From positions 274,857-338,856 of the forward strand of contig CAKAJK010000008.1 of NCBI GenBank assembly GCA_916610825.1: 64,000 nucleotides of DNA, read 5' to 3'. This DNA comes from Haliclystus octoradiatus (Eukaryota; Cnidaria; Staurozoa; Stauromedusae; Haliclystidae). Under the pieces are notes generated by a model. That model ran no database searches. It was not told where the DNA came from and saw only the letters and a program-made list of their open reading frames with translations. This document shows positions 13,619-64,000 of the stretch, one piece after another. The position numbers and the translations under genes were made by a program. Within the stretch, counting starts at the first letter, position 1, and every line of letters begins with the position of its first letter.

Positions 13619-13763
13619 TAACTCGAGTAATTCGTGTTTGAAGATTTCCTTTGTTTAAAGTTGAAAATTTGAAACTGTAAAATAGAAGTTTTGAATACAA
13701 TATTCTTGTTCAGAATTTTTCACTGATTCCAAATATACTATTTGTGAAACGATTACGCCATTA
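13619..13763 (+). repeat. Representative B monomer (B1), 145 bp
   Basis: A clean B1 example. TAACTCGAG is followed by TAATTCGTG, TTTCCTTTG, AAATTTGAAACTG, ATAGAAG and TTGAATACAATATT, then the same CTTGTTCAGAA...TTTGTGAAA box found in A. It ends with CGATTACGCCATTA, the segment that precedes an A monomer. Apart from the box and the TAACTCGAG joint, B is clearly diverged from A and 9 bp shorter, so A and B look like ancient duplicates later amplified together as a dimer. Its A-box base is TTTTTCAC where A has TTTTGCAC. Confidence 0.95.
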
Positions 13764-35000: not shown

Positions 35001-35363
35001 ATATTCTTGTTCAGAATTTTTCACTGATTCCAAATATACTACTTGTGAAACGATTACGCCATTATAACTCGAGAAATTGTTGTTTTAGTTTGACGTACAA
35101 AACTTTCTTAAAATTCGAAATTTCAAAACTGTACATTTTAAACTTTTGAGAACATTATTCTTGTTCAGAATTTTGCACTGATTCCAAATATACTATTTGT
35201 GAAATGATTGCTCAACTATAACTCGAGTAATTCGTGTTTGAAGATTTCCTTTGTTTAAAGTTGAAAATTTGAAACTGTAAAATAGAAGTTTTGAATACAA
35301 TATTCTTGTTCAGAATTTTTCACTGATTCCAAATATACTACTTGTGAAACGATTACGCCATTA
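26041..35363 (+). repeat. A4/A5/A6/B3 HOR family, first part
   Basis: Units, each started at an A4: 26041 A4 A5 B3 A6 B3 (752) | 26793 A4 A1 B3 A4 B3 A6 B3 (1051) | 27844 A4 A5 B3 A4 B3 A6 B3 (1051) | 28895 A4 A5 B3 A6 B3 | 29647 A4 A1 B3 (453) | 30100 A4 A5 B3 A6 A5 B3 A6 B3 (1205) | 31305 A4 A1 B3 A6 B3 A6 B3 (1051) | 32356 A4 A1 B3 A4 B3 A6 B3 (1051) | 33407 A4 A5 B3 A6 B3 | 34159 A4 A1 B3 A4 A5 B3 A6 B3 (1205). A-A doublets are frequent, unlike the previous region. The A5 at 30254 has two private changes (TTTTACTTAC and AAAAATTTG). Confidence 0.87.
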
Positions 35364-38300: not shown

Positions 38301-41243
38301 TAAACTTTTGAGAACATTATTCTTGTTCAGAATTTTGCACTGATTCCAAATATACTATTTGTGAAACGATTACGCCATTATAACTCGAGAAATTGTTGTT
38401 TTAGTTTGACGTACAAAACTTTGTTAAAATTCGAAATTTCAAAACTGTACATTTTAAACTTTTGAGAACATTTTTCTTGTTCAGAATTTTGCACTGATTC
38501 CAAATATACTATTTGTGAAATGATTGCTCAACTATAACTCGAGTAATTCGTGTTTGAAGATTTCCTTTGTTTAAAGTTGAAAATTTGAAACTGTAAAATA
38601 GAAGTTTTGAATACAATATTCTTGTTCAGAATTTTTCACTGATTCCAAATATACTACTTGTGAAACGATTACGCCAATATAACTCGAGAAATTGTTGTTT
38701 TAGTTTGACGTACAAAACTTTCTTAAAATTCGAAATTTCAAAACTGTACATTTTAAACTTTTGAGAACATTATTCTTGTTCAGAATTTTGCACTGATTCC
38801 AAATATACTATTTGTGAAACGATTACGCCATTATAACTCGAGAAATTGTTGTTTTAGTTTTACGTACAAAACTTTGTTAAAATTCGAAATTTCAAAACTG
38901 TACATTTTAAACTTTTGAGAACATTTTTCTTGTTCAGAATTTTGCACTGATTCCAAATATACTATTTGTGAAATGATTGCTCAACTATAACTCGAGTAAT
39001 TCGTGTTTGAAGATTTCCTTTGTTTAAAGTTGAAAATTTGAAACTGTAAAATAGAAGTTTTGAATACAATATTCTTGTTCAGAATTTTTCACTGATTCCA
39101 AATATACTACTTGTGAAACGATTACGCCATTATAACTCGAGAAATTGTTGTTTTAGTTTGACGTACAAAACTTTCTTAAAATTCGAAATTTCAAAACTGT
39201 ACATTTTAAACTTTTGAGAACATTATTCTTGTTCAGAATTTTGCACTGATTCCAAATATACTATTTGTGAAATGATTGCTCAACTATAACTCGAGTAATT
39301 CGTGTTTGAAGATTTCCTTTGTTTAAAGTTGAAAATTTGAAACTGTAAAATAGAAGTTTTGAATACAATATTCTTGTTCAGAATTTTTCACTGATTCCAA
39401 ATATACTACTTGTGAAACGATTACGCCATTATAACTCGAGAAATTGTTGTTTTAGTTTGACGTACAAAACTTTGTTAAAATTCGAAATTTCAAAACTGTG
39501 CATTGTAAACTTTTGAGAACATTATTCTTGTTCAGAATTTTGCACTGATTCCAAATATACTATTTGTGAAACGATTACGCCATTATAACTCGAGAAATTG
39601 TTGTTTTAGTTTTACGTACAAAACTTTGTTAAAATTCGAAATTTCAAAACTGTACATTTTAAACTTTTGAGAACATTATTCTTGTTCAGAATTTTGCACT
39701 GATTCCAAATATACTATTTGTGAAACGATTACGCCATTATAACTCGAGAAATTGTTGTTTTAGTTTTACGTACAAAACTTTGTTAAAATTCGAAATTTCA
39801 AAACTGTACATTTTAAACTTTTGAGAACATTTTTCTTGTTCAGAATTTTGCACTGATTCCAAATATACTATTTGTGAAATGATTGCTCAACTATAACTCG
39901 AGTAATTCGTGTTTGAAGATTTCCTTTGTTTAAAGTTGAAAATTTGAAACTGTAAAATAGAAGTTTTGAATACAATATTCTTGTTCAGAATTTTTCACTG
40001 ATTCCAAATATACTACTTGTGAAACGATTACGCCATTATAACTCGAGAAATTGTTGTTTTAGTTTGACGTACAAAACTTTCTTAAAATTCGAAATTTCAA
40101 AACTGTACATTTTAAACTTTTGAGAACATTATTCTTGTTCAGAATTTTGCACTGATTCCAAATATACTATTTGTGAAATGATTGCTCAACTATAACTCGA
40201 GTAATTCGTGTTTGAAGATTTCCTTTGTTTAAAGTTGAAAATTTGAAACTGTAAAATAGAAGTTTTGAATACAATATTCTTGTTCAGAATTTTTCACTGA
40301 TTCCAAATATACTACTTGTGAAACGATTACGCCATTATAACTCGAGAAATTGTTGTTTTAGTTTGACGTACAAAACTTTGTTAAAATTCGAAATTTCAAA
40401 ACTGTGCATTGTAAACTTTTGAGAACATTATTCTTGTTCAGAATTTTGCACTGATTCCAAATATACTATTTGTGAAACGATTACGCCATTATAACTCGAG
40501 AAATTGTTGTTTTAGTTTTACGTACAAAACTTTGTTAAAATTCGAAATTTCAAAACTGTACATTTTAAACTTTTGAGAACATTATTCTTGTTCAGAATTT
40601 TGCACTGATTCCAAATATACTATTTGTGAAACGATTACGCCATTATAACTCGAGAAATTGTTGTTTTAGTTTTACGTACAAAACTTTGTTAAAATTCGAA
40701 ATTTCAAAACTGTACATTTTAAACTTTTGAGAACATTTTTCTTGTTCAGAATTTTGCACTGATTCCAAATATACTATTTGTGAAATGATTGCTCAACTAT
40801 AACTCGAGTAATTCGTGTTTGAAGATTTCCTTTGTTTAAAGTTGAAAATTTGAAACTGTAAAATAGAAGTTTTGAATACAATATTCTTGTTCAGAATTTT
40901 TCACTGATTCCAAATATACTACTTGTGAAACGATTACGCCATTATAACTCGAGAAATTGTTGTTTTAGTTTGACGTACAAAACTTTCTTAAAATTCGAAA
41001 TTTCAAAACTGTACATTTTAAACTTTTGAGAACATTATTCTTGTTCAGAATTTTGCACTGATTCCAAATATACTATTTGTGAAATGATTGCTCAACTATA
41101 ACTCGAGTAATTCGTGTTTGAAGATTTCCTTTGTTTAAAGTTGAAAATTTGAAACTGTAAAATAGAAGTTTTGAATACAATATTCTTGTTCAGAATTTTT
41201 CACTGATTCCAAATATACTACTTGTGAAACGATTACGCCATTA
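35364..41243 (+). repeat. 2863-bp tandem duplication and 906-bp hexamers
   Basis: 35364-38226 (A4 A1 B3 A6 A5 B3 A6 B3 | A4 A5 A5 B3 A6 B3 | A4 A5 B3 A6 B3) is followed from 38227 by the same first fourteen monomers, an offset of 2863 bp. Both copies carry the private mark GCCAATATAAC (near 35812 and 38675). The 906-bp hexamer A4 A5 A5 B3 A6 B3, in which the first A5 has ACATTATT, lies at 36569, 39432 and 40338, the last two in tandem. The A6 at 37176 unusually has ACATTTTTC. Confidence 0.87.
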
Positions 41244-44200
41244 TAACTCGAGAAATTGTTGTTTTAGTTTGACGTACAAAACTTTGTTAAAATTCGAAAT
41301 TTCAAAACTGTGCATTGTAAACTTTTGAGAACATTATTCTTGTTCAGAATTTTGCACTGATTCCAAATATACTATTTGTGAAACGATTACGCCATTATAA
41401 CTCGAGAAATTGTTGTTTTAGTTTTACGTACAAAACTTTGTTAAAATTCGAAATTTCAAAACTGTACATTTTAAACTTTTGAGAACATTTTTCTTGTTCA
41501 GAATTTTGCACTGATTCCAAATATACTATTTGTGAAATGATTGCTCAACTATAACTCGAGTAATTCGTGTTTGAAGATTTCCTTTGTTTAAAGTTGAAAA
41601 TTTGAAACTGTAAAATAGAAGTTTTGAATACAATATTCTTGTTCAGAATTTTTCACTGATTCCAAATATACTACTTGTGAAACGATTACGCCATTATAAC
41701 TCGAGAAATTGTTGTTTTAGTTTGACGTACAAAACTTTCTTAAAATTCGAAATTTCAAAACTGTACATTTTAAACTTTTGAGAACATTATTCTTGTTCAG
41801 AATTTTGCACTGATTCCAAATATACTATTTGTGAAATGATTGCTCAACTATAACTCGAGTAATTCGTGTTTGAAGATTTCCTTTGTTTAAAGTTGAAAAT
41901 TTGAAACTGTAAAATAGAAGTTTTGAATACAATATTCTTGTTCAGAATTTTTCACTGATTCCAAATATACTACTTGTGAAACGATTACGCCATTATAACT
42001 CGAGAAATTGTTGTTTTAGTTTGACGTACAAAACTTTGTTAAAATTCGAAATTTCAAAACTGTGCATTGTAAACTTTTGAGAACATTATTCTTGTTCAGA
42101 ATTTTGCACTGATTCCAAATATACTATTTGTGAAACGATTACGCCATTATAACTCGAGAAATTGTTGTTTTAGTTTGACGTACAAAACTTTGTTAAAATT
42201 CGAAATTTCAAAACTGTACATTTTAAACTTTTGAGAACATTATTCTTGTTCAGAATTTTGCACTGATTCCAAATATACTATTTGTGAAATGATTGCTCAA
42301 CTATAACTCGAGTAATTCGTGTTTGAAGATTTCCTTTGTTTAAAGTTGAAAATTTGAAACTGTAAAATAGAAGTTTTGAATACAATATTCTTGTTCAGAA
42401 TTTTTCACTGATTCCAAATATACTACTTGTGAAACGATTACGCCATTATAACTCGAGAAATTGTTGTTTTAGTTTGACGTACAAAACTTTGTTAAAATTC
42501 GAAATTTCAAAACTGTGCATTGTAAACTTTTGAGAACATTATTCTTGTTCAGAATTTTGCACTGATTCCAAATATACTATTTGTGAAACGATTACGCCAT
42601 TATAACTCGAGAAATTGTTGTTTTAGTTTTACGTACAAAACTTTGTTAAAATTCGAAATTTCAAAACTGTACATTTTAAACTTTTGAGAACATTTTTCTT
42701 GTTCAGAATTTTGCACTGATTCCAAATATACTATTTGTGAAATGATTGCTCAACTATAACTCGAGTAATTCGTGTTTGAAGATTTCCTTTGTTTAAAGTT
42801 GAAAATTTGAAACTGTAAAATAGAAGTTTTGAATACAATATTCTTGTTCAGAATTTTTCACTGATTCCAAATATACTACTTGTGAAACGATTACGCCATT
42901 ATAACTCGAGAAATTGTTGTTTTAGTTTGACGTACAAAACTTTCTTAAAATTCGAAATTTCAAAACTGTACATTTTAAACTTTTGAGAACATTATTCTTG
43001 TTCAGAATTTTGCACTGATTCCAAATATACTATTTGTGAAATGATTGCTCAACTATAACTCGAGTAATTCGTGTTTGAAGATTTCCTTTGTTTAAAGTTG
43101 AAAATTTGAAACTGTAAAATAGAAGTTTTGAATACAATATTCTTGTTCAGAATTTTTCACTGATTCCAAATATACTACTTGTGAAACGATTACGCCATTA
43201 TAACTCGAGAAATTGTTGTTTTAGTTTGACGTACAAAACTTTGTTAAAATTCGAAATTTCAAAACTGTGCATTGTAAACTTTTGAGAACATTATTCTTGT
43301 TCAGAATTTTGCACTGATTCCAAATATACTATTTGTGAAACGATTACGCCATTATAACTCGAGAAATTGTTGTTTTAGTTTTACGTACAAAACTTTGTTA
43401 AAATTCGAAATTTCAAAACTGTACATTTTAAACTTTTGAGAACATTTTTCTTGTTCAGAATTTTGCACTGATTCCAAATATACTATTTGTGAAATGATTG
43501 CTCAACTATAACTCGAGTAATTCGTGTTTGAAGATTTCCTTTGTTTAAAGTTGAAAATTTGAAACTGTAAAATAGAAGTTTTGAATACAATATTCTTGTT
43601 CAGAATTTTTCACTGATTCCAAATATACTACTTGTGAAACGATTACGCCATTATAACTCGAGAAATTGTTGTTTTAGTTTGACGTACAAAACTTTCTTAA
43701 AATTCGAAATTTCAAAACTGTACATTTTAAACTTTTGAGAACATTATTCTTGTTCAGAATTTTGCACTGATTCCAAATATACTATTTGTGAAATGATTGC
43801 TCAATTATAACTCGAGTAATTCGTGTTTGAAGATTTCCTTTGTTTAAAGTTGAAAATTTGAAACTGTAAAATAGAAGTTTTGAATACAATATTCTTGTTC
43901 AGAATTTTTCACTGATTCCAAATATACTACTTGTGAAACGATTACGCCATTATAACTCGAGAAATTGTTGTTTTAGTTTGACGTACAAAATATTGTTAAA
44001 ATTCGAAATTTCAAAACTGTGCATTGTAAACTTTTGAGAACATTATTCTTGTTCAGAATTTTGCACTGATTCCAAATATACTATTTGTGAAACGATTACG
44101 CCATTATAACTCGAGAAATTGTTGTTTTAGTTTGACGTACAAAACTTTGTTAAAATTCGAAATTTCAAAACTGTACATTTTAAACTTTTGAGAACATTTT

Positions 44201-47200
44201 TCTTGTTCAGAATTTTGCACTGATTCCAAATATACTATTTGTGAAATGATTGCTCAACTATAACTCGAGTAATTCGTGTTTGAAGATTTCCTTTGTTTAA
44301 AGTTGAAAATTTGAAACTGTAAAATAGAAGTTTTGAATACAATATTCTTGTTCAGAATTTTTCACTGATTCCAAATATACTACTTGTGAAACGATTATGC
44401 CATTATAACTCGAGAAATTGTTGTTTTAGTTTGACGTACAAAACTTTGTTAAAATTCGAAATTTCAAAACTGTGCATTGTAAACTTTTGAGAACATTATT
44501 CTTGTTCAGAATTTTGCACTGATTCCAAATATACTATTTGTGAAACGATTACGCCATTATAACTCGAGAAATTGTTGTTTTAATTTTACGTACAAAACTT
44601 TGTTAAAATTCGAAATTTCAAAACTGTACATTTTAAACTTTTGAGAACATTTTTCTTGTTCAGAATTTTGCACTGATTCCAAATATACTATTTGTGAAAT
44701 GATTGCTCAACTATAACTCGAGTAATTCGTGTTTGAAGATTTCCTTTGTTTAAAGTTGAAAATTTGAAACTGTAAAATAGAAGTTTTGAATACAATATTC
44801 TTGTTCAGAATTTTTCACTGATTCCAAATATACTACTTGTGAAACGATTACGCCATTATAACTCGAGAAATTGTTGTTTTAGTTTGACGTACAAAACTTT
44901 CTTAAAATTCGAAATTTCAAAACTGTACATTTTAAACTTTTGAGAACATTATTCTTGTTCAGAATTTTGCACTGATTCCAAATATACTATTTGTGAAATG
45001 ATTGCTCAACTATAACTCGAGTAATTCGTGTTTGAAGATTTCCTTTGTTTAAAGTTGAAAATTTGAAACTGTAAAATAGAAGTTTTGAATACAATATTCT
45101 TGTTCAGAATTTTTCACTGATTCCAAATATACTACTTGTGAAACGATTACGCCATTATAACTCGAGAAATTGTTGTTTTAGTTTGACGTACAAAACTTTG
45201 TTAAAATTCGAAATTTCAAAACTGTGCATTGTAAACTTTTGAGAACATTATTCTTGTTCAGAATTTTGCACTGATTCCAAATATACTATTTGTGAAACGA
45301 TTACGCCATTATAACTCGAGAAATTGTTGTTTTAGTTTGACGTACAAAACTTTGTTAAAATTCGAAATTTCAAAACTGTACATTTTAAACTTTTGAGAAC
45401 ATTTTTCTTGTTCAGAATTTTGCACTGATTCCAAATATACTATTTGTGAAATGATTGCTCAACTATAACTCGAGTAATTCGTGTTTGAAGATTTCCTTTG
45501 TTTAAAGTTGAAAATTTGAAACTGTAAAATAGAAGTTTTGAATACAATATTCTTGTTCAGAATTTTTCACTGATTCCAAATATACTATTTGTGAAACGAT
45601 TACGCCATTATAACTCGAGAAATTGTTGTTTTAGTTTGACGTACAAAACTTTGTTAAAATTCGAAATTTCAAAACTGTACATTTTAAACTTTTGAGAACA
45701 TTTTTCTTGTTCAGAATTTTGCACTGATTCCAAATATACTATTTGTGAAATGATTGCTCAACTATAACTCGAGTAATTCGTGTTTGAAGATTTCCTTTGT
45801 TTAAAGTTGAAAATTTGAAACTGTAAAATAGAAGTTTTGAATACAATATTCTTGTTCAGAATTTTTCACTGATTCCAAATATACTACTTGTGAAACGATT
45901 ACGCCATTATAACTCGAGAAATTGTTGTTTTAGTTTGACGTACAAAACTTTCTTAAAATTCGAAATTTCAAAACTGTACATTTTAAACTTTTGAGAACAT
46001 TATTCTTGTTCAGAATTTTGCACTGATTCCAAATATACTATTTGTGAAATGATTGCTCAACTATAACTCGAGTAATTCGTGTTTGAAGATTTCCTTTGTT
46101 TAAAGTTGAAAATTTGAAACTGTAAAATAGAAGTTTTGAATACAATATTCTTGTTCAGAATTTTTCACTGATTCCAAATATACTACTTGTGAAACGATTA
46201 CGCCATTATAACTCGAGAAATTGTTGTTTTAGTTTGACGTACAAAACTTTGTTAAAATTCGAAATTTCAAAACTGTGCATTGTAAACTTTTGAGAACATT
46301 ATTCTTGTTCAGAATTTTGCACTGATTCCAAATATACTATTTGTGAAACGATTACGCCATTATAACTCGAGAAATTGTTGTTTTAGTTTTACGTACAAAA
46401 CTTTGTTAAAATTCGAAATTTCAAAACTGTACATTTTAAACTTTTGAGAACATTATTCTTGTTCAGAATTTTGCACTGATTCCAAATATACTATTTGTGA
46501 AACGATTACGCCATTATAACTCGAGAAATTGTTGTTTTAGTTTTACGTACAAAACTTTGTTAAAATTCGAAATTTCAAAACTGTACATTTTAAACTTTTG
46601 AGAACATTTTTCTTGTTCAGAATTTTGCACTGATTCCAAATATACTATTTGTGAAATGATTGCTCAACTATAACTCGAGTAATTCGTGTTTGAAGATTTC
46701 CTTTGTTTAAAGTTGAAAATTTGAAACTGTAAAATAGAAGTTTTGAATACAATATTCTTGTTCAGAATTTTTCACTGATTCCAAATATACTACTTGTGAA
46801 ACGATTACGCCATTATAACTCGAGAAATTGTTGTTTTAGTTTGACGTACAAAACTTTGTTAAAATTCGAAATTTCAAAACTGTGCATTGTAAACTTTTGA
46901 GAACATTATTCTTGTTCAGAATTTTGCACTGATTCCAAATATACTATTTGTGAAACGATTACGCCATTATAACTCGAGAAATTGTTGTTTTAGTTTTACG
47001 TACAAAACTTTGTTAAAATTCGAAATTTCAAAACTGTACATTTTAAACTTTTGAGAACATTATTCTTGTTCAGAATTTTGCACTGATTCCAAATATACTA
47101 TTTGTGAAACGATTACGCCATTATAACTCGAGAAATTGTTGTTTTAGTTTTACGTACAAAACTTTGTTAAAATTCGAAATTTCAAAACTGTACATTTTAA

Positions 47201-48319
47201 ACTTTTGAGAACATTTTTCTTGTTCAGAATTTTGCACTGATTCCAAATATACTATTTGTGAAATGATTGCTCAACTATAACTCGAGTAATTCGTGTTTGA
47301 AGATTTCCTTTGTTTAAAGTTGAAAATTTGAAACTGTAAAATAGAAGTTTTGAATACAATATTCTTGTTCAGAATTTTTCACTGATTCCAAATATACTAC
47401 TTGTGAAACGATTACGCCATTATAACTCGAGAAATTGTTGTTTTAGTTTGACGTACAAAACTTTCTTAAAATTCGAAATTTCAAAACTGTACATTTTAAA
47501 CTTTTGAGAACATTATTCTTGTTCAGAATTTTGCACTGATTCCAAATATACTATTTGTGAAATGATTGCTCAACTATAACTCGAGTAATTCGTGTTTGAA
47601 GATTTCCTTTGTTTAAAGTTGAAAATTTGAAACTGTAAAATAGAAGTTTTGAATACAATATTCTTGTTCAGAATTTTTCACTGATTCCAAATATACTACT
47701 TGTGAAACGATTACGCCATTATAACTCGAGAAATTGTTGTTTTAGTTTTACGTACAAAACTTTGTTAAAATTCGAAATTTCAAAACTGTACATTTTAAAC
47801 TTTTGAGAACATTTTTCTTGTTCAGAATTTTGCACTGATTCCAAATATACTATTTGTGAAATGATTGCTCAACTATAACTCGAGTAATTCGTGTTTGAAG
47901 ATTTCCTTTGTTTAAAGTTGAAAATTTGAAACTGTAAAATAGAAGTTTTGAATACAATATTCTTGTTCAGAATTTTTCACTGATTCCAAATATACTACTT
48001 GTGAAACGATTACGCCATTATAACTCGAGAAATTGTTGTTTTAGTTTGACGTACAAAACTTTCTTAAAATTCGAAATTTCAAAACTGTACATTTTAAACT
48101 TTTGAGAACATTATTCTTGTTCAGAATTTTGCACTGATTCCAAATATACTATTTGTGAAATGATTGCTCAACTATAACTCGAGTAATTCGTGTTTGAAGA
48201 TTTCCTTTGTTTAAAGTTGAAAATTTGAAACTGTAAAATAGAAGTTTTGAATACAATATTCTTGTTCAGAATTTTTCACTGATTCCAAATATACTACTTG
48301 TGAAACGATTACGCCATTA

Positions 48320-48473
48320 TAACTCGAGAAATTGTTGTTTTAGTTTGACGTACAAAACTTTCTTAAAATTCGAAATTTCAAAACTGTGCATTGTAAACTT
48401 TTGAGAACATTATTCTTGTTCAGAATTTTGCACTGATTCCAAATATACTATTTGTGAAACGATTACGCCATTA
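48320..48473 (+). repeat. Hybrid monomer A6/A4
   Basis: The left half has the A6 mark CTTTCTTAAA (C at 48362) and the right half has the A4 mark GTGCATTGT (G at 48388). The switch therefore lies within 26 bp around TTCGAAATTTCAAAAC. It follows A6-B3 and precedes A1-B3, so a parent A6-B3-A4 run losing one 299-bp dimer would give this product. The same kind of hybrid occurs at 57480. Confidence 0.85.
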
Positions 48474-49524
48474 TAACTCGAGAAATTGTTGTTTTAGTTT
48501 GACGTACAAAACTTTGTTAAAATTCGAAATTTCAAAACTGTACATTTTAAACTTTTGAGAACATTATTCTTGTTCAGAATTTTGCACTGATTCCAAATAT
48601 ACTATTTGTGAAATGATTGCTCAACTATAACTCGAGTAATTCGTGTTTGAAGATTTCCTTTGTTTAAAGTTGAAAATTTGAAACTGTAAAATAGAAGTTT
48701 TGAATACAATATTCTTGTTCAGAATTTTTCACTGATTCCAAATATACTACTTGTGAAACGATTACGCCATTATAACTCGAGAAATTGTTGTTTTAGTTTG
48801 ACGTACAAAACTTTGTTAAAATTCGAAATTTCAAAACTGTGCATTGTAAACTTTTGAGAACATTATTCTTGTTCAGAATTTTGCACTGATTCCAAATATA
48901 CTATTTGTGAAACGATTACGCCATTATAACTCGAGAAATTGTTGTTTTAGTTTTACGTACAAAACTTTGTTAAAATTCGAAATTTCAAACCTGTACATTT
49001 TAAACTTTTGAGAACATTTTTCTTGTTCAGAATTTTGCACTGATTCCAAATATACTATTTGTGAAATGATTGCTCAACTATAACTCGAGTAATTCGTGTT
49101 TGAAGATTTCCTTTGTTTAAAGTTGAAAATTTGAAACTGTAAAATAGAAGTTTTGAATACAATATTCTTGTTCAGAATTTTTCACTGATTCCAAATATAC
49201 TACTTGTGAAACGATTACGCCATTATAACTCGAGAAATTGTTGTTTTAGTTTGACGTACAAAACTTTCTTAAAATTCGAAATTTCAAAACTTTACATTTT
49301 AAACTTTTGAGAACATTATTCTTGTTCAGAATTTTGCACTGATTCCAAATATACTATTTGTGAAATGATTGCTCAACTATAACTCGAGTAATTCGTGTTT
49401 GAAGATTTCCTTTGTTTAAAGTTGAAAATTTGAAACTGTAAAATAGAAGTTTTGAATACAATATTCTTGTTCAGAATTTTTCACTGATTCCAAATATACT
49501 ACTTGTGAAACGATTACGCCATTA

Positions 49525-49823
49525 TAACTCGAGAAATTGTTGTTTTAGTTTGACGTACAAAACTTTGTTAAAATTCGAAATTTCAAAACTGTGCATTGTA
49601 AACTTTTGAGAACATTATTCTTGTTCAGAATTTTGCACTGATTCCAAATATACTATTTGTGAAACGATTGCTCAACTATAACTCGAGTAATTCGTGTTTG
49701 AAGATTTCCTTTGTTTAAAGTTGAAAATTTGAAACTGTAAAATAGAAGTTTTGAATACAATATTCTTGTTCAGAATTTTTCACTGATTCCAAATATACTA
49801 CTTGTGAAATGATTACGCCATTA
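49525..49823 (+). repeat. A4-B3 pair with switched junction GAAACGATTGCTC
   Basis: A4 normally ends CGATTACGCC and is followed by an A. Here the joint reads ACGATTGCTC (C at 49665, G at 49670): it has the A-head first base and then the B head. The change falls inside the four bases GATT (49666-49669). Loss of one 154-bp A1 from an A4-A1-B3 run explains it. The following B3 ends AATGATTACGCC (T at 49810), the opposite combination, which may be a separate C-to-T change at a CpG. Confidence 0.82.
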
Positions 49824-52233
49824 TAACTCGAGAAATTGTTGTTTTAGTTTGACGTACAAAACTTTGTTAAAATTCGAAATTTCAAAACTGTGCATTGTAA
49901 ACTTTTGAGAACATTATTCTTGTTCAGAATTTTGCACTGATTCCAAATATACTATTTGTGAAACGATTACGCCATTATAACTCGAGAAATTGTTGTTTTA
50001 GTTTTACGTACAAAACTTTGTTACAATTCGAAATTTCAAAACTGTACATTTTAAACTTTTGAGAACATTTTTCTTGTTCAGAATTTTGCACTGATTCCAA
50101 ATATACTATTTGTGAAATGATTGCTCAACTATAACTCGAGTAATTCGTGTTTGAAGATTTCCTTTGTTTAAAGTTGAAAATTTGAAACTGTAAAATAGAA
50201 GTTTTGAATACAATATTCTTGTTCAGAATTTTTCACTGATTCCAAATATACTACTTGTGAAACGATTACGCCATTATAACTCGAGAAATTGTTGTTTTAG
50301 TTTGACGTACAAAACTTTCTTAAAATTCGAAATTTCAAAACTGTACATTTTAAACTTTTGAGAACATTATTCTTGTTCAGAATTTTGCACTGATTCCAAA
50401 TATACTATTTGTGAAATGATTGCTCAACTATAACTCGAGTAATTCGTGTTTGAAGATTTCCTTTGTTTAAAGTTGAAAATTTGAAACTGTAAAATAGAAG
50501 TTTTGAATACAATATTCTTGTTCAGAATTTTTCACTGATTCCAAATATACTACTTGTGAAACGATTACGCCATTATAACTCGAGAAATTGTTGTTTTAGT
50601 TTGACGTACAAAACTTTGTTAAAATTCGAAATTTCAAAACTGTGCATTGTAAACTTTTGAGAACATTATTCTTGTTCAGAATTTTGCACTGATTCCAAAT
50701 ATACTATTTGTGAAACGATTACGCCATTATAACTCGAGAAATTGTTGTTTTAGTTTGACGTACAAAACTTTGTTAAAATTCGAAATTTCAAAACTGTACA
50801 TTTTAAACTTTTGAGAACATTTTTCTTGTTCAGAATTTTGCACTGATTCCAAATATACTATTTGTGAAATGATTGCTCAACTATAACTCGAGTAATTCGT
50901 GTTTGAAGATTTCCTTTGTTTAAAGTTGAAAATTTGAAACTGTAAAATAGAAGTTTTGAATACAATATTCTTGTTCAGAATTTTTCACTGATTCCAAATA
51001 TACTACTTGTGAAACGATTACGCCATTATAACTCGAGAAATTGTTGTTTTAGTTTGACGTACAAAACTTTGTTAAAATTCGAAATTTCAAAACTGTGCAT
51101 TGTAAACTTTTGAGAACATTATTCTTGTTCAGAATTTTGCACTGATTCCAAATATACTATTTGTGAAACGATTACGCCATTATAACTCGAGAAATTGTTG
51201 TTTTAGTTTTACGTACAAAACTTTGTTACAATTCGAAATTTCAAAACTGTACATTTTAAACTTTTGAGAACATTTTTCTTGTTCAGAATTTTGCACTGAT
51301 TCCAAATATACTATTTGTGAAATGATTGCTCAACTATAACTCGAGTAATTCGTGTTTGAAGATTTCCTTTGTTTAAAGTTGAAAATTTGAAACTGTAAAA
51401 TAGAAGTTTTGAATACAATATTCTTGTTCAGAATTTTTCACTGATTCCAAATGTACTACTTGTGAAACGATTACGCCATTATAACTCGAGAAATTGTTGT
51501 TTTAGTTTGACGTACAAAACTTTCTTAAAATTCGAAATTTCAAAACTGTACATTTTAAACTTTTGAGAACATTATTCTTGTTCAGAATTTTGCACTGATT
51601 CCAAATATACTATTTGTGAAATGATTGCTCAACTATAACTCGAGTAATTCGTGTTTGAAGATTTCCTTTGTTTAAAGTTGAAAATTTGAAACTGTAAAAT
51701 AGAAGTTTTGAATACAATATTCTTGTTCAGAATTTTTCACTGATTCCAAATATACTACTTGTGAAACGATTACGCCATTATAACTCGAGAAATTGTTGTT
51801 TTAGTTTGACGTACAAAACTTTGTTAAAATTCGAAATTTCAAAACTGTGCATTGTAAACTTTTGAGAACATTATTCTTGTTCAGAATTTTGCACTGATTC
51901 CAAATATACTATTTGTGAAACGATTACGCCATTATAACTCGAGAAATTGTTGTTTTAGTTTGACGTACAAAACTTTGTTAAAATTCGAAATTTCAAAACT
52001 GTACATTTTAAACTTTTGAGAACATTTTTCTTGTTCAGAATTTTGCACTGATTCCAAATATACTATTTGTGAAATGATTGCTCAACTATAACTCGAGTAA
52101 TTCGTGTTTGAAGATTTCCTTTGTTTAAAGTTGAAAATTTGAAACTGTAAAATAGAAGTTTTGAATACAATATTCTTGTTCAGAATTTTTCACTGATTCC
52201 AAATATACTACTTGTGAAACGATTACGCCATTA

Positions 52234-55200
52234 TAACTCGAGAAATTGTTGTTTTAGTTTGACGTACAAAACTTTGTTAAAATTCGAAATTTCAAAACTG
52301 TGCATTTTAAACTTTTGAGAACATTATTCTTGTTCAGAATTTTGCACTGATTCCAAATATACTATTTGTGAAATGATTGCTCAACTTTAACTCGAGTAAT
52401 TCGTGTTTGAAGATTTCTTTTGTTTAAAGTTGAAAATTTGAAACTGTAAAATATAAGTTTTGAATACAATATTCTTGTTTAGAATTTTTCACTGATTCCA
52501 AATATACTATTTGTGAAACGATTACGCCATTATAACTCGAGAAATTGTTGTTTTAGTTTGACGTACAAAACTTTGTTAAAATTCGAAATTTCAAAACTGT
52601 GCATTGTAAACTTTTGAGAACATTATTCTTGTTTAGAATTTTGCACTGATTCCAAATATACTATTTGTGAAGTGATTGCTCAACTATAACTCGAGTAATT
52701 CGTGTTTGAAGATTTCTTTTGTTTAAAGTTGAAAATTTGAAACTGTAAAATATAAGTTTTGAATACAATATTCTTGTTCAGAATTTTTCACTGATTCCAA
52801 ATATACTATTTGTGAAACGATTACGCCATTATAACTCGAGAAATTCTTGTTTTAGTTTGACTTACAAAACTTTGTTAAAATTCGAAATTTCAAAACTGTA
52901 CATTTTAAACTTTTGAGAACATTATTCTTGTTCACAATTTTGCACTGATTCCAAATATACTATTTGTGAAATGATTGCTCAACTATAACTCGAGTAATTC
53001 GTGTTTGAAGATTTCCTTTGTTTAAAGTTGAAACTTTGAAACTGTAAAATAGAAGTTTTGAATACAATATTCTTGTTCAGAATTTTTCACTGATTCCAAA
53101 TATACTATTTGTGAAACGATTACGCCATTATAACTCGAGAAATTGTTGTTTTAGTTTGACGTACAAAACTTTGTTAAAATTCGAAATTTCAAAACTGTAC
53201 ATTTTAAACTTTTGAGAACATTTTTCTTGTTCAGAATTTTGCACTGATTCCAAATATACTATTTGTGAAATGATTGCTCAACTATAACTCGAGAAATTCG
53301 TGTTTGAAGATTTCCTTTGTTTAAAGTTGAAAATTTGAAACTGTAAAATAGAAGTTTTGAATACAATATTCTTGTTCAAAATTTTTCACTGATTCCAAAT
53401 ATACTATTTGTGAAACGATTACGCCATTATAACTCGAGAAATTGTTGTTTTAGTTTGACGTACAAAACTTTGTTAAAATTCGAAATTTCAAAACTGTGCA
53501 TTTTAAACTTTTGAGAACATTATTCTTGTTCAGAATTTCGCACTGATTCCAAATATACTATTTGTGAAATGATTGCTCAACTATAACTCGAGTAATTCGT
53601 GTTTGAAGATTTCTTTTGTTTAAAGTTGAAAATTTGAAACTGTAAAATATAAGTTTTGAATATAATATTCTTGTTCAGAATTTTTCACTGATTCCAAATA
53701 TACTATTTGTGAAACGATTACGCCATTATAACTCGAGAAATTGTTGTTTTAGTTTGACGTACAAAACTTTGTTAAAATTCGAAATTTCAAAACTGTGCAT
53801 TTTAAACTTTTGAGAACATTATTCTTGTTCAGAATTTTGCACTGATTCCAAATATACTATTTGTGAAATGATTGCTCAACTATAACTCGAGTAATTCGTG
53901 TTTGAAGATTTCTTTTGTTTAAAGTTGAAAATTTGAAACTGTAAAATATAAGTTTTGAATATAATATTCTTGTTCAGAATTTTTCACTGATTCCAAATAT
54001 ACTATTTGTGAAACGATTACGCCATTATAACTCGAGAAATTGTTGTTTTAGTTTGACGTACAAAACTTTGTTAAAATTCGAAATTTCAAAACTGTGCATT
54101 TTAAACTTTTGAGAACATTATTCTTGTTCAGAATTTTGCACTGATTCCAAATATACTATTTGTGAAATGATTGCTCAACTATAACTCGAGTAATTCGTGT
54201 TTGAAGATTTCTTTTGTTTAAAGTTGAAAATTTGAAACTGTAAAATATAAGTTTTGAATACAATATTCTTGTTTAGAATTTTTCACTGATTCCAAATATA
54301 CTATTTGTGAAACGATTACGCCATTATAACTCGAGAAATTGTTGTTTTAGTTTGACGTACAAAACTTTGTTAAAATTCGAAATTTCAAAACTGTGCATTG
54401 TAAACTTTTGAGAACATTATTCTTGTTTAGAATTTTGCACTGATTCCAAATATACTATTTGTGAAATGATTGCTCAACTATAACTCGAGTAATTCGTGTT
54501 TGAAGATTTCTTTTGTTTAAAGTTGAAAATTTGAAACTGTAAAATATAAGTTTTGAATACAATATTCTTGTTCAAAATTTTTCACTGATTCCAAATATAC
54601 TATTTGTGAAACGATTACGCCATTATAACTCGAGAAATTCTTGTTTTAGTTTGACTTACAAAACTTTGTTAAAATTCGAAATTTCAAAACTGTACATTTT
54701 AAACTTTTGAGAACATTATTCTTGTTCACAATTTTGCACTGATTCCAAATATACTATTTGTGAAATGATTGCTCAACTATAACTCGAGTAATTCGTGTTT
54801 GAAGATTTCCTTTGTTTAAAGTTGAAAATTTGAAACTGTAAAATAGAAGTTTTGAATACAATATTCTTGTTCAGAATTTTTCACTGATTCCAAATATACT
54901 ATTTGTGAAACGATTACGCCATTATAACTCGAGAAATTGTTGTTTTAGTTTGACGTACAAAACTTTGTTAAAATTCGAAATTTCAAAACTGTACATTTTA
55001 AACTTTTGAGAACATTTTTCTTGTTCAGAATTTTGCACTGATTCCAAATATACTATTTGTGAAATGATTGCTCAACTATAACTCGAGTAATTCGTGTTTG
55101 AAGATTTCCTTTGTTTAAAGTTGAAAATTTGAAACTGTAAAATAGAAGTTTTGAATACAATATTCTTGTTCAAAATTTTTCACTGATTCCAAATATACTA

Positions 55201-56881
55201 TTTGTGAAACGATTACGCCATTATAACTCGAGAAATTGTTGTTTTAGTTTGACGTACAAAACTTTGTTAAAATTCGAAATTTCAAAACTGTGCATTTTAA
55301 ACTTTTGAGAACATTATTCTTGTTCAGAATTTTGCACTGATTCCAAATATACTATTTGTGAAATGATTGCTCAACTATAACTCGAGTAATTCATGTTTGA
55401 AGATTTCTTTTGTTTAAAGTTGAAAATTTGAAACTGTAAAATATAAGTTTTGAATACAATATTCTTGTTCAGAATTTTTCACTGATTCCAAATATACTAT
55501 TTGTGAAACGATTACGCCATTATAACTCGAGAAATTGTTGTTTTAGTTTGACGTACAAAACTTTGTTAAAATTCGAAATTTCAAAACTGTACATTTTAAA
55601 CTTTTGAGAACATTTTTCTTGTTCAGAATTTTGCACTGATTCCAAATATACTATTTGTGAAATGATTGCTCAACTATAACTCGAGTAATTTGTGTTTGAA
55701 GATTTCCTTTGTTTAAAGTTGAAAATTTGAAACTGTAAAATAGAAGTTTTGAATACAATATTCTTGTTTAGAATTTTTCACTGATTCCAAATATACTATT
55801 TGTGAAACGATTACGCCATTATAACTCGAGAAATTGTTGTTTTAGTTTGACGTACAAAACTTTGTTAAAATTCGAAATTTCAAAACTGTACATTTTAAAC
55901 TTTTGAGAACATTATTCTTGTTCAGAATTTTGCACTGATTCCAAATATACTATTTGTAAAATGATTGCTCAACTATAACTCGAGTAATTCGTGTTTGAAG
56001 ATTTCCTTTGTTTAAAGTTGAAAATTTGAAACTGTAAAATAGAAGTTTTGAATACAATATTCTTGTTCAGAATTTTTCACTGATTCCAAATATACTATTT
56101 GTGAAACGATTACGCCATTATAACTCGAGAAATTGTTGTTTTAGTTTGACGTACAAAACTTTGTTAAAATTCGAAATTTCAAAACTGTGCATTGTAAACT
56201 TTTGAGAACATTATTCTTGTTCAGAATTTTGCACTGATTCCAAATATACTATTTGTGAAACGATTACGCCATTATAACTCGAGAAATTGTTGTTTTAGTT
56301 TGACGTACAAAACTTTGTTAAAATTCGAAATTTCAAAACTGTACATTTTAAACTTTTGAGAACATTTTTCTTGTTCAGAATTTTGCACTGATTCCAAATA
56401 TACTATTTGTGAAATGATTGCTCAACTATAACTCGAGTAATTCGTGTTTGAAGATTTCCTTTGTTTAAAGTTGAAAATTTGAAACTGTAAAATAGAAGTT
56501 TTGAATACAATATTCTTGTTCAGAATTTTTCACTGATTCCAAATATACTATTTGTGAAACGATTACGCCATTATAACTCGAGAAATTGTTGTTTTAGTTT
56601 GACGTACAAAACTTTGTTAAAATTCGAAATTTCAAAACTGTGCATTGTAAACTTTTGAGAACATTATTCTTGTTCAGAATTTTGCACTGATTCCAAATAT
56701 ACTATTTGTGAAACGATTACGCCATTATAACTCGAGAAATTGTTGTTTTAGTTTGACGTACAAAACTTCGTTAAAATTCGAAATTTCAAAACTGTACATT
56801 TTAAACTTTTGAGAACATTTTTCTTGTTCAGAATTTTGCACTGATTCCAAATATACTATTTGTGAAATGATTGCTCAACTA
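52234..56881 (+). repeat. Return of the dimer family: second copy of the 19599-25.9 kb region
   Basis: At 52234 the B3/A5/A6 family stops abruptly and A3 B2 A4 B2 A2 B1 resumes, as at 19599 (offset 32635). It continues A1 B1 A3 B2 A3 B2 A3 B2 A4 B2 | 54626 A2 B1 A1 B1 A3 B2 (AATTCATG) A1 B1 (AATTTGTG) A (TTTGTAAAATG) B1 A4 A1 B1 A4 A1. Relative to 19599-25.9 kb it lacks the 1794-bp tandem copy and a 453-bp trimer at 24537-24989, has one extra A3-B2 dimer, and keeps the 299 bp that are missing at 25289. The B1 at 53285 starts TAACTCGAGAAATTCGTG, with one A-type base. Confidence 0.87.
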
Positions 56882-59800
56882 TAACTCGAGTAATTCGTGT
56901 TTGAAGATTTCCTTTGTTTAAAGTTGAAAATTTGAAACTGTAAAATAGAAGTTTTGAATACAATATTCTTGTTCAGAATTTTTCACTGATTCCAAATATA
57001 CTACTTGTGAAACGATTACGCCATTATAACTCGAGAAATTGTTGTTTTAGTTTGACGTACAAAACTTTGTTAAAATTCGAAATTTCAAAACTGTGCATTG
57101 TAAACTTTTGAGAACATTATTCTTGTTCAGAATTTTGCACTGATTCCAAATATACTATTTGTGAAACGATTACGCCATTATAACTCGAGAAATTGTTGTT
57201 TTAGTTTTACGTACAAAACTTTGTTAAAATTCGAAATTTCAAAACTGTACATTTTAAACTTTTGAGAACATTTTTCTTGTTCAGAATTTTGCACTGATTC
57301 CAAATATACTATTTGTGAAATGATTGCTCAACTATAACTCGAGTAATTCGTGTTTGAAGATTTCCTTTGTTTAAAGTTGAAAATTTGAAACTGTAAAATA
57401 GAAGTTTTGAATACAATATTCTTGTTCAGAATCTTTCACTGATTCCAAATATACTACTTGTGAAACGATTACGCCATTATAACTCGAGAAATTGTTGTTT
57501 TAGTTTGACGTACAAAACTTTCTTAAAATTCGAAATTTCAAAACTGTGCATTGTAAACTTTTGAGAACATTATTCTTGTTCAGAATTTTGCACTGATTCC
57601 AAATATACTATTTGTGAAACGATTACGCCATTATAACTCGAGAAATTGTTGTTTTAGTTTGACGTACAAAACTTTGTTAAAATTCGAAATTTCAAAACTG
57701 TACATTTTAAACTTTTGAGAACATTTTTCTTGTTCAGAATTTTGCACTGATTCCAAATATACTATTTGTGAAATGATTGCTCAACTATAACTCGAGTAAT
57801 TCGTGTTTGAAGATTTCCTTTGTTTAAAGTTGAAAATTTGAAACTGTAAAATAGAAGTTTTGAATACAATATTCTTGTTCAGAATTTTTCACTGATTCCA
57901 AATATACTACTTGTGAAACGATTACGCCATTATAACTCGAGAAATTGTTGTTTTAGTTTGACGTACAAAACTTTCTTAAAATTCGAAATTTCAAAACTGT
58001 ACATTTTAAACTTTTGAGAACATTATTCTTGTTCAGAATTTTGCACTGATTCCAAATATACTATTTGTGAAATGATTGCTCAACTATAACTCGAGTAATT
58101 CGTGTTTGAAGATTTCCTTTGTTTAAAGTTGAAAATTTGAAACTGTAAAATAGAAGTTTTGAATACAATATTCTTGTTCAGAATTTTTCACTGATTCCAA
58201 ATATACTACTTGTGAAACGATTACGCCATTATAACTCGAGAAATTGTTGTTTTAGTTTGACGTACAAAACTTTGTTAAAATTCGAAATTTCAAAACTGTG
58301 CATTGTAAACTTTTGAGAACATTATTCTTGTTCAGAATTTTGCACTGATTCCAAATATACTATTTGTGAAACGATTACGCCATTATAACTCGAGAAATTG
58401 TTGTTTTAGTTTGACGTACAAAACTTTGTTAAAATTCGAAATTTCAAAACTGTACATTTTAAACTTTTGAGAACATTTTTCTTGTTCAGAATTTTGCACT
58501 GATTCCAAATATACTATTTGTGAAATGATTGCTCAACTATAACTCGAGTAATTCGTGTTTGAAGATTTCCTTTGTTTAAAGTTGAAAATTTGAAACTGTA
58601 AAATAGAAGTTTTGAATACAATATTCTTGTTCAGAATTTTTCACTGATTCCAAATATACTACTTGTGAAACGATTACGCCATTATAACTCGAGAAATTGT
58701 TGTTTTAGTTTGACGTACAAAACTTTGTTAAAATTCGAAATTTCAAAACTGTGCATTGTAAACTTTTGAGAACATTATTCTTGTTCAGAATTTTGCACTG
58801 ATTCCAAATATACTATTTGTGAAACGATTACGCCATTATAACTCGAGAAATTGTTGTTTTAGTTTTACGTACAAAACTTTGTTAAAATTCGAAATTTCAA
58901 AACTGTACATTTTAAACTTTTGAGAACATTTTTCTTGTTCAGAATTTTGCACTGATTCCAAATATACTATTTGTGAAATGATTGCTCAACTATAACTCGA
59001 GTAATTCGTGTTTGAAGATTTCCTTTGTTTAAAGTTGAAAATTTGAAACTGTAAAATAGAAGTTTTGAATACAATATTCTTGTTCAGAATTTTTCACTGA
59101 TTCCAAATATACTACTTGTGAAACGATTACGCCATTATAACTCGAGAAATTGTTGTTTTAGTTTGACGTACAAAACTTTCTTAAAATTCGAAATTTCAAA
59201 ACTGTACATTTTAAACTTTTGAGAACATTATTCTTGTTTAGAATTTTGCACTGATTCCAAATATACTATTTGTGAAACGATTACGCCATTATAACTCGAG
59301 AAATTGTTGTTTTAGTTTTACGTACAAAACTTTGTTAAAATTCGAAATTTCAAAACTGTACATTTTAAACTTTTGAGAACATTTTTCTTGTTCAGAATTT
59401 TGCACTGATTCCAAATATACTATTTGTGAAATGATTGCTCAACTATAACTCGAGTAATTCGTGTTTGAAGATTTCCTTTGTTTAAAGTTGAAAATTTGAA
59501 ACTGTAAAATAGAAGTTTTGAATACAATATTCTTGTTCAGAATTTTTCACTGATTCCAAATATACTACTTGTGAAACGATTACGCCATTATAACTCGAGA
59601 AATTGTTGTTTTAGTTTGACGTACAAAACTTTCTTAAAATTCGAAATTTCAAAACTGTACATTTTAAACTTTTGAGAACATTATTCTTGTTCAGAATTTT
59701 GCACTGATTCCAAATATACTATTTGTGAAATGATTGCTCAACTATAACTCGAGTAATTCGTGTTTGAAGATTTCCTTTGTTTAAAGTTGAAAATTTGAAA

Positions 59801-62800
59801 CTGTAAAATAGAAGTTTTGAATACAATATTCTTGTTCAGAATTTTTCACTGATTCCAAATATACTACTTGTGAAACGATTACGCCATTATAACTCGAGAA
59901 ATTGTTGTTTTAGTTTGACGTACAAAACTTTGTTAAAATTCGAAATTTCAAAACTGTGCATTGTAAACTTTTGAGAACATTATTCTTGTTCAGAATTTTG
60001 CACTGATTCCAAATATACTATTTGTGAAACGATTACGCCATTATAACTCGAGAAATTGTTGTTTTAGTTTGACGTACAAAACTTTGTTAAAATTCGAAAT
60101 TTCAAAACTGTACATTTTAAACTTTTGAGAACATTTTTCTTGTTCAGAATTTTGCACTGATTCCAAATATACTATTTGTGAAATGATTGCTCAACTATAA
60201 CTCGAGTAATTCGTGTTTGAAGATTTCCTTTGTTTAAAGTTGAAAATTTGAAACTGTAAAATAGAAGTTTTGAATACAATATTCTTGTTCAGAATTTTTC
60301 ACTGATTCCAAATATACTACTTGTGAAACGATTACGCCATTATAACTCGAGAAATTGTTGTTTTAGTTTGACGTACAAAACTTTGTTAAAATTCGAAATT
60401 TCAAAACTGTGCATTGTAAACTTTTGAGAACATTATTCTTGTTCAGAATTTTGCACTGATTCCAAATATACTATTTGTGAAACGATTACGCCATTATAAC
60501 TCGAGAAATTGTTGTTTTAGTTTTACGTACAAAACTTTGTTAAAATTCGAAATTTCAAAACTGTACATTTTAAACTTTTGAGAACATTTTTCTTGTTCAG
60601 AATTTTGCACTGATTCCAAATATACTATTTGTGAAATGATTGCTCAACTATAACTCGAGTAATTCGTGTTTGAAGATTTCCTTTGTTTAAAGTTGAAAAT
60701 TTGAAACTGTAAAATAGAAGTTTTGAATACAATATTCTTGTTCAGAATTTTTCACTGATTCCAAATATACTACTTGTGAAACGATTACGCCATTATAACT
60801 CGAGAAATTGTTGTTTTAGTTTGACGTACAAAACTTTCTTAAAATTCGAAATTTCAAAACTGTACATTTTAAACTTTTGAGAACATTATTCTTGTTCAGA
60901 ATTTTGCACTGATTCCAAATATACTATTTGTGAAACGATTACGCCATTATAACTCGAGAAATTGTTGTTTTAGTTTTACGTACAAAACTTTGTTAAAATT
61001 CGAAATTTAAAAACTGTACATTTTAAACTTTTGAGAACATTTTTCTTGTTCAGAATTTTGCACTGATTCCAAATATACTATTTGTGAAATGATTGCTCAA
61101 CTATAACTCGAGTAATTCGTGTTTGAAGATTTCCTTTGTTTAAAGTTGAAAATTTGAAACTGTAAAATAGAAGTTTTGAATACAATATTCTTGTTCAGAA
61201 TTTTTCACTGATTCCAAATATACTACTTGTGAAACGATTACGCCATTATAACTCGAGAAATTGTTGTTTTAGTTTGACGTACAAAACTTTCTTAAAATTC
61301 GAAATTTCAAAACTGTACATTTTAAACTTTTGAGAACATTATTCTTGTTCAGAATTTTGCACTGATTCCAAATATACTATTTGTGAAATGATTGCTCAAC
61401 TATAACTCGAGTAATTCGTGTTTGAAGATTTCCTTTGTTTAAAGTTGAAAATTTGAAACTGTAAAATAGAAGTTTTGAATACAATATTCTTGTTCAGAAT
61501 TTTTCACTGATTCCAAATATACTACTTGTGAAACGATTACGCCATTATAACTCGAGAAATTGTTGTTTTAGTTTGACGTACAAAACTTTGTTAAAATTCG
61601 AAATTTCAAAACTGTGCATTGTAAACTTTTGAGAACATTATTCTTGTTCAGAATTTTGCACTGATTCCAAATATACTATTTGTGAAACGATTACGCCATT
61701 ATAACTCGAGAAATTGTTGTTTTAGTTTGACGTACAAAACTTTGTTAAAATTCGAAATTTCAAAACTGTACATTTTAAACTTTTGAGAACATTTTTCTTG
61801 TTCAGAATTTTGCACTGATTCCAAATATACTATTTGTGAAATGATTGCTCAACTATAACTCGAGTAATTCGTGTTTGAAGATTTCCTTTGTTTAAAGTTG
61901 AAAATTTGAAACTGTAAAATAGAAGTTTTGAATACAATATTCTTGTTCAGAATTTTTCACTGATTCCAAATATACTACTTGTGAAACGATTACGCCATTA
62001 TAACTCGAGAAATTGTTGTTTTAGTTTGACGTACAAAACTTTGTTAAAATTCGAAATTTCAAAACTGTGCATTGTAAACTTTTGAGAACATTATTCTTGT
62101 TCAGAATTTTGCACTGATTCCAAATATACTATTTGTGAAACGATTACGCCATTATAACTCGAGAAATTGTTGTTTTAGTTTTACGTACAAAACTTTGTTA
62201 AAATTCGAAATTTCAAAACTGTACATTTTAAACTTTTGAGAACATTTTTCTTGTTCAGAATTTTGCACTGATTCCAAATATACTATTTGTGAAATGATTG
62301 CTCAACTATAACTCGAGTAATTCGTGTTTGAAGATTTCCTTTGTTTAAAGTTGAAAATTTGAAACTGTAAAATAGAAGTTTTGAATACAATATTCTTGTT
62401 CAGAATTTTTCACTGATTCCAAATATACTACTTGTGAAACGATTACGCCATTATAACTCGAGAAATTGTTGTTTTAGTTTGACGTACAAAACTTTCTTAA
62501 AATTCGAAATTTCAAAACTGTACATTTTAAACTTTTGAGAACATTATTCTTGTTCAGAATTTTGCACTGATTCCAAATATACTATTTGTGAAATGATTGC
62601 TCAACTATAACTCGAGTAATTCGTGTTTGAAGATTTCCTTTGTTTAAAGTTGAAAATTTGAAACTGTAAAATAGAAGTTTTGAATACAATATTCTTGTTC
62701 AGAATTTTTCACTGATTCCAAATATACTACTTGTGAAACGATTACGCCATTATAACTCGAGAAATTGTTGTTTTAGTTTGACGTACAAAACTTTGTTAAA

Positions 62801-63957
62801 ATTCGAAATTTCAAAACTGTGCATTGTAAACTTTTGAGAACATTATTCTTGTTCAGAATTTTGCACTGATTCCAAATATACTATTTGTGAAACGATTACG
62901 CCATTATAACTCGAGAAATTGTTGTTTTAGTTTGACGTACAAAACTTTGTTAAAATTCGAAATTTCAAAACTGTACATTTTAAACTTTTGAGAACATTTT
63001 TCTTGTTCAGAATTTTGCACTGATTCCAAATATACTATTTGTGAAATGATTGCTCAACTATAACTCGAGTAATTCGTGTTTGAAGATTTCCTTTGTTTAA
63101 AGTTGAAAATTTGAAACTGTAAAATAGAAGTTTTGAATACAATATTCTTGTTCAGAATTTTTCACTGATTCCAAATATACTACTTGTGAAACGATTACGC
63201 CATTATAACTCGAGAAATTGTTGTTTTAGTTTGACGTACAAAACTTTGTTAAAATTCGAAATTTCAAAACTGTGCATTGTAAACTTTTGAGAACATTATT
63301 CTTGTTCAGAATTTTGCACTGATTCCAAATATACTATTTGTGAAACGATTACGCCATTATAACTCGAGAAATTGTTGTTTTAGTTTTACGTACAAAACTT
63401 TGTTAAAATTCGAAATTTCAAAACTGTACATTTTAAACTTTTGAGAACATTTTTCTTGTTCAGAATTTTGCACTGATTCCAAATATACTATTTGTGAAAT
63501 GATTGCTCAACTATAACTCGAGTAATTCGTGTTTGAAGATTTCCCTTGTTTAAAGTTGAAAATTTGAAACTGTAAAATAGAAGTTTTGAATACAATATTC
63601 TTGTTCAGAATTTTTCACTGATTCCAAATATACTACTTGTGAAACGATTACGCCATTATAACTCGAGAAATTGTTGTTTTAGTTTGACGTACAAAACTTT
63701 CTTAAAATTCGAAATTTCAAAACTGTACATTTTAAACTTTTGAGAACATTATTCTTGTTCAGAATTTTGCACTGATTCCAAATATACTATTTGTGAAATG
63801 ATTGCTCAACTATAACTCGAGTAATTCGTGTTTGAAGATTTCCTTTGTTTAAAGTTGAAAATTTGAAACTGTAAAATAGAAGTTTTGAATACAATATTCT
63901 TGTTCAGAATTTTTCACTGATTCCAAATATACTACTTGTGAAACGATTACGCCATTA
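56882..63957 (+). repeat. A4/A5/A6/B3 family resumes, with 1658- and 1205-bp units
   Basis: After the first B3 (56882) come A4 A5 B3, A6/A4 hybrid (57480), A1 B3 A6 B3. Then two copies of an eleven-monomer 1658-bp unit, A4 A1 B3 A4 A5 B3 A6 A5 B3 A6 B3, lie at 58232-59889 and 59890-61547. Two copies of the eight-monomer 1205-bp unit A4 A1 B3 A4 A5 B3 A6 B3 follow at 61548-62752 and 62753-63957. The 1658-bp unit is the 1205-bp unit plus an A6 A5 B3 trimer (453 bp). Private marks include AATCTTTCAC at 57433, TTTAG in the A6 at 59138 and TTTCCCTTG at 63545. Confidence 0.88.
57480..57633 (+). repeat. Second A6/A4 hybrid monomer
   Basis: CTTTCTTAAA (C at 57522) is combined with GTGCATTGT (G at 57548) in one 154-bp monomer. 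In the first copy of this region the run is A6 (26494) B3 A4 (26793) A1. Here a single hybrid takes the place of A6-B3-A4, so exactly 299 bp are missing. The breakpoint lies within 57522-57548. Confidence 0.87.
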
Positions 63958-64000
63958 TAACTCGAGAAATTGTTGTTTTAGTTTGACGTACAAAACTTTG
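63958..64000 (+). repeat. Partial A monomer at the right edge
   Basis: The first 43 bases of an A monomer with GACGTAC and CTTTG. By position in the 1205-bp unit it should be A4, but the diagnostic bases lie beyond the window. The array continues to the right. Confidence 0.9.

Follow-up and report, generated by a model that had tools for sequence, protein, structure and literature searches.

Satellite arrays are known to grow by the copying of blocks, and the available part of PMC11034957 names both unequal sister exchange and break-induced copying as models for such arrays. In human centromeres, relics of older higher-order repeats (HORs) lie among newly spread HORs (PMC11062924, available part). 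Here, we describe a joint in a satellite array of the stalked jellyfish Haliclystus octoradiatus at which a homogeneous HOR family (B3) passes into an older family (A'), after which the array runs once more from A' through a transition to B3. The event that we propose for it, a block duplication within the array, is of a known kind.

The joint resembles unequal crossover in tandem repeats (Smith 1976, as cited in the available part of PMC11034957) in its direct tandem copies, its in-register exchange within homology, and its blocks of many units, but it differs in that the collinearity of B3 is not locus-specific and the reciprocal product is unseen. It is also comparable to expansion by break-induced replication in human centromeric arrays (same part of PMC11034957), where a fork restarted in a satellite can yield duplications; the jellyfish case, however, is known from sequence alone and is indistinguishable from crossover. 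Like centromeric-type HOR arrays, the array has a homogeneous HOR family beside older families and older sequence among new HORs, and it also has the trait of near-nucleosome-length monomers (145/154 bp) organized in higher-order units (1,205 bp). In contrast to those arrays, its sequence, built of 145/154-bp monomers, is different, and no match to the strict CENP-B box (the human consensus, which is not required of all centromeres) was found on the + strand of the window. The macro-dyad satellite arrays of the beetle Tribolium madens (PMC13081366, available part) are likewise built of subunits in an invertebrate, and the jellyfish satellite is present in both orientations on another scaffold, C12. 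The beetle unit lengths differ, however, the likeness is one of description, and the joint studied here reads as a direct duplication.

The published assembly, jrHalOcto1.1, comprises 33 scaffolds with a longest scaffold of 39,977,743 bp, an N50 of 28,991,210 bp, and a total of 261,898,343 bp; it was built by HiCanu from 68-fold HiFi data sheared to 12 to 20 kb, was polished with 10X reads, and is incompletely phased (PMC9975415). The genome assembly used here comprises 262 Mb (261,861,806 bp, 36,537 bp fewer than published) in 33 sequences, including C1 (39,977,743 bp) and C5 (28,991,210 bp). The window, by which we mean the whole stretch of DNA analyzed, is the last 64,000 bases of scaffold C17 (338,856 bp), so that position 64,000 is the final base of the scaffold. 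Because of its size compared to the nine chromosomes of 16.7 to 40 Mb, we regard C17 as an unplaced scaffold. Positions below are those of the window unless a scaffold is named.

C17 has the monomer spacing of the satellite everywhere, on one strand and without N, in the three stretches covered (1 to 10,000, 100,001 to 110,000, and 190,001 to 338,856), and a 29-base core of the satellite has 6,790 + 4,975 occurrences assembly-wide. Monomer decomposition of C17:190,001-338,856 yielded 990 monomers (572 of 154 bp, 406 of 145 bp, 11 of 148 bp, and 1 of 155 bp). The main unit of B3 is 1,205 bp long and consists of 8 monomers (2a 1a 0b 2a 4a 0b 3a 0b), and variants of it are present. The 145-bp monomers of B3 are very uniform, with 0.23 and 0.33 differences per pair (C17, 300 to 320 kb) compared to 0.95 to 3.43 in other stretches of C17; apart from these monomers, there was no clear divergence gradient along the scaffold. 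No description of this satellite was found in the limited literature searched (monomer sequence words; Haliclystus; cnidarian centromere/satellite), and the available text of PMC9975415 and PMC9112765 does not describe it. The parts of the window, all on the + strand, are as follows.

1..10178 (right edge approximate), +: older satellite families with 145/154-bp monomers, left of the block, from monomer decomposition; they extend upstream in the scaffold
10179..25137 (edges approximate), +: the older A' family, which forms higher-order repeats of its own and contains 5 of the 7 A' marker sites
19602..25137, +: within A', the best-scoring source for the A' part of copy 2, by monomer alignment
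25138..26351 (right edge approximate), +: copy 1, transition into B3
26352..52236, +: copy 1, B3 family (main unit of 1,205 bp)
52212..52306, +: joint from B3 to A', 95 bp shared identically by both parents
52237..55824, +: A' of copy 2, 24 monomers
55825..57337 (right edge approximate), +: transition of copy 2, with two monomers absent from copy 1
57338..64000, +: B3 of copy 2, truncated by the scaffold end

An earlier note on this DNA had placed an abrupt switch from B3 to the older sequence at 52,234. We found that the switch, at 52,234/52,237, leads into A' and that the changeover, which is present in the assembly, lies inside 52,212 to 52,306. Reading from left to right, differences from the A' parent end at 52,211. 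Differences from B3 begin at 52,307 where B3 runs 1a-0b-2a (3 of 8 compared B3 places) and at 52,276 in the single compared place followed by 3a; the other 4 places, whose left sides were not in register, were uninformative for this edge. The resulting 95-bp tract is the same in A' and in 1a-0b-2a B3 and has 76 occurrences on the + strand of the window. Monomer register is preserved across the joint, which thus sits in register inside perfect homology, and this counts for a block duplication. Counting against it, the exact cross-joint pattern has two occurrences assembly-wide, one at the joint itself and one at C17:213,068, at which a B3-like array likewise gives way to a different family. Since the window contains no N, the joint is not a scaffolding gap.

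To compare the two copies, we aligned monomers with affine gaps, using scores weighted by the rarity of each monomer type. The A' sequence after the joint has its best upstream alignment from 19,602 (an offset of 32,635), and the order A', transition, B3 indeed recurs from the joint to 64,000. Of the 78 copy-2 monomers (52,237 to the end), 73 pair in order with 19,602 to 35,366, both on the + strand, in nine blocks separated by eight whole-monomer indels and with 15 single nucleotide polymorphisms (SNPs). The score of 146.2 is far above that of 30 shuffles that preserved the a/b monomer pattern (mean, 12.3; maximum, 18.8) and that of the reversed order (13.7). A constant offset of 32,635, as would appear in a self dot plot, fails after about 56 kb, and the block offsets drift from 32,635 to 28,594. 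In 500-bp bins, ungapped identity at 32,635 is 98.2 to 99.8% between 52.0 and 56.0 kb; it falls to 71% and then 44% over the following two bins and stays at 30 to 34% up to the end. Because the second alignment block (from 53,732) is already at an offset of 31,140, part of the 98% identity reflects the general likeness of in-register monomers.

Across A' and the transition, alignment of 4,802 bases revealed 6 SNPs between the two copies. Copy 1 contains a duplication of 1,794 bp with 12 identical monomers, and each of its two units carries two SNPs that separate monomer types 31 and 32 (copy 1) from types 10 and 24 (copy 2). Types 10 and 24 are found at 10 to 14 kb as well, so copy 2 seems to retain the older state at these SNPs. 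The block duplication would have preceded the 1,794-bp duplication. By SNPs alone, the A' of copy 2 is nearer to 10.2 to 15 kb (1 SNP in 18 monomers, but with three gaps and a score of 53.9) than to the sequence from 19.6 kb (5 SNPs in 22 monomers, with one gap and a score of 70.2), and for this reason the left breakpoint is uncertain.

B3 was less specific. When the B3 of copy 2 was anchored at 126 starts in copy 1, the best was 33,410 (score, 73.8); the predicted start, 26,044, ranked 12th (66.8), and its neighbor 25,591 ranked 3rd (70.4). Free local alignment favored 33.3 to 43 kb (74.8), and comparison with five overlapping segments of copy 1 gave, from left to right, 55.2 (the predicted 25.6 to 34.5 kb), 56.3, 63.8 (34.5 to 43.4 kb), 45.1, and 38.6. 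Copy-2 B3 therefore matches other B3 positions as well as or better than the predicted one, and we rejected it as independent support for the duplication; by these scores, it appears to resemble the left and middle of copy-1 B3 more than the right end. A rare monomer-19 trimer between 4a-like monomers at 60.8 kb recurs at its aligned partner at 30.6 kb, which favors a duplication, whereas a second trimer of copy 2, at 59.1 kb, is not matched in this way by the alignment and speaks against it.

These results bear on the size of the event. Copy 2 is visible over 11.8 kb before the scaffold ends, collinear with copy 1 in A' and the transition. Since the offset drifts and copy-2 B3 shows no preference for the predicted part, the figure of 32.6 kb describes how far apart the copies now lie rather than a demonstrated event size. 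Accepting the B3 alignment as it stands, the block would have included at least 15.8 kb of copy 1; by the present spacing, it would measure about 32.6 kb. Of the ~32.6-kb duplication by one exchange proposed in the earlier note, we thus retain a tandem, in-register block duplication as the best reading, but neither its size nor its being a single event, as B3 favors 33.4 kb and copy 2 ends after 11.8 kb.

Exact markers were used to look for other sources of copy 2. A 29-base A' marker occurs at 7 places assembly-wide, all 7 in C17: one at -22.2 kb relative to the window, five at 10.3 to 19.7 kb, and one in copy 2. A 36-base marker of monomer 4a occurs at 34 places, with 24 and 7 in the two B3 blocks of the window, 1 at C17:45,183, and 2 in C12. 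Searching the whole assembly with these exact markers, which an altered marker would escape, we found no other assembled array that carries both and thus no other candidate source. A', and A' together with 4a-bearing B3, appear to tie both copies to one array or its alleles. Other queries were less specific: a monomer 0b marker occurs at 137 places (C17 and C19 among the 100 matches listed), a 197-base transition pattern occurs at 18 places in C17, C19, C21, and C23, and a 301-bp query that spans the joint finds 97 to 99% matches in C12 and C19 besides C17. Arrays at roughly C17:201-212 kb and at the beginning of C19 are similar in appearance, but because the alignment scores are low (19.1 and 16.0; the shuffle maximum of 18.8 came from a longer query than these alignments), we name no source for the transition.

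We assign a probability of roughly 0.55 to a real tandem block duplication, whatever its size, within one satellite array, as suggested by the alignment and the joint. It would have arisen by homologous exchange in monomer register, through either unequal exchange between sister chromatids or the restart of a broken fork on the sister with a shift of about 30 kb. In this event, a B3 monomer at about 52.2 kb would have aligned with the homologous site in an A' monomer at about 19.6 kb, from which copying would have resumed; afterwards, whole monomers and higher-order units would have been gained and lost in both copies about as often as point mutations. We infer this molecular route, as well as a block that held most of B3; unequal sister exchange and break-induced copying leave identical local sequence. 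That copy-2 B3 fails to single out a matching part of copy 1 would also be expected if an older, smaller duplication had carried A', the transition, and a short B3 seed, with B3 then expanding separately in each copy and 32.6 kb being the resulting spacing. The eight whole-monomer indels compared to 15 SNPs indicate fast unit turnover and fit such a history too. We nevertheless consider it unlikely. The transition and B3 of copy 1 have 0.66 private SNPs per kb and lineage and A' plus the transition have 6 SNPs in 4.8 kb between two lineages, which suggests similar ages, albeit with a wide error, and the monomer-19 trimer is present in both copies, although such hybrids could arise twice. A third reading, in which a tract of about 5 kb (A' and the transition) was copied into a continuing B3 by two-ended gene conversion or template switching and no large block was duplicated, draws on the fact that only A' and the order from A' to transition are specific to the locus; its second end, lying within B3, would be traceless. 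This reading is very improbable, as it requires two switches where one suffices, and the monomer-19 trimer at aligned places weakly favors some B3 having been carried along.

The joint might also be an artifact, namely, a chimeric read or a haplotype switch within the array at a weakly supported scaffold end. The joint lies 11.76 kb from that end, about one HiFi fragment and within reach of a single one sheared to 12 to 20 kb, and a divergence of 0.12% plus differences in unit number is also possible between two alleles. Against this, the homology at the joint is 95 bp and is flanked by differing sequence, whereas HiFi assemblers require near-exact overlaps longer than that, and a chance ligation would not be expected to keep the register, as the joint does. 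Private SNPs, defined as monomer types seen once in C17 from 190 to 339 kb, number 0.56 per kb in the A' of copy 2 and 0.62 in the rest of copy 2, compared to 0.66 in the transition and B3 of copy 1; values are 0.00 in 19.6 to 25.1 kb and 0.58 to 3.25 in stretches further left. Copy 2 thus has no excess over the transition and B3 of copy 1 and gives no sign of poor consensus at the scaffold end, and 978 of the 990 monomers in C17:190,001-338,856 are exactly 145 or 154 bp long. The misjoin that the earlier note had offered as an alternative is therefore weakened by the in-register 95-bp homology and the absence of a SNP excess, and we rate it as quite unlikely. Because the joint is about one read length from the scaffold end, it needs read support.

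Block copying is habitual in the C17 array, and the joint at 52.2 kb is not singular. Between 190 and 339 kb of C17, we counted 116 off-diagonal runs that extend without gaps over 10 or more monomers and contain no more than 1 SNP per monomer (repeats of HORs at short offsets being counted); long runs include 36 monomers at an offset of 16,771 and 29 at 7,956. A second large-block joint lies at -2.1 kb (C17:272.76 kb), where the sequence of -22.0 kb (C17:252.8 kb) is taken up again in three blocks with offsets of 19,924, 12,422, and 11,670, together 54 monomers with 9 SNPs. These other copies within the same 149 kb count in favor of a block duplication at 52.2 kb. The tandem block duplication at 52.2 kb would thus be part of a readable stalked-jellyfish example of satellite growth, with in-register joints, block copies, fast unit turnover, and few point mutations, and it cautions that the present spacing of copies differs from the size of the originating event. 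It is improbable that a super-repeat of about 30 kb (an island of the old family, a transition, and a B3 block) recurs past the scaffold end; if it did, large blocks, and not single HORs, would be the unit of array growth in a staurozoan.

Several observations concern the satellite and the assembly elsewhere. C17 at about 201 to 212 kb and C19:1-10000 carry a B3-like repeat with the orders 33a 5b 2a and 1a 0b 3a 0b 2a, and the 4a marker is absent from both among the places listed. C12 (933 kb) has the same satellite at 349 to 663 kb (-) and from 696.7 kb (+), among the places listed. The satellite probably reverses orientation somewhere from roughly 663 to 697 kb, and by analogy this reversal may perhaps be a large dyad as in T. 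madens. Interstitial TTAGG-like and GCTAT-like pentamers lie at C5:11,186,001-11,187,200, and C1 starts with CCCTAA (TTAGGG) repeats. C33 (18,316 bp) bears mitochondrial cox1, and frames opposite to cox1 read as what we take to be cox2, atp8, and atp6. The mitochondrial genome of jrHalOcto1.1 is 18.3 kb (PMC9975415).
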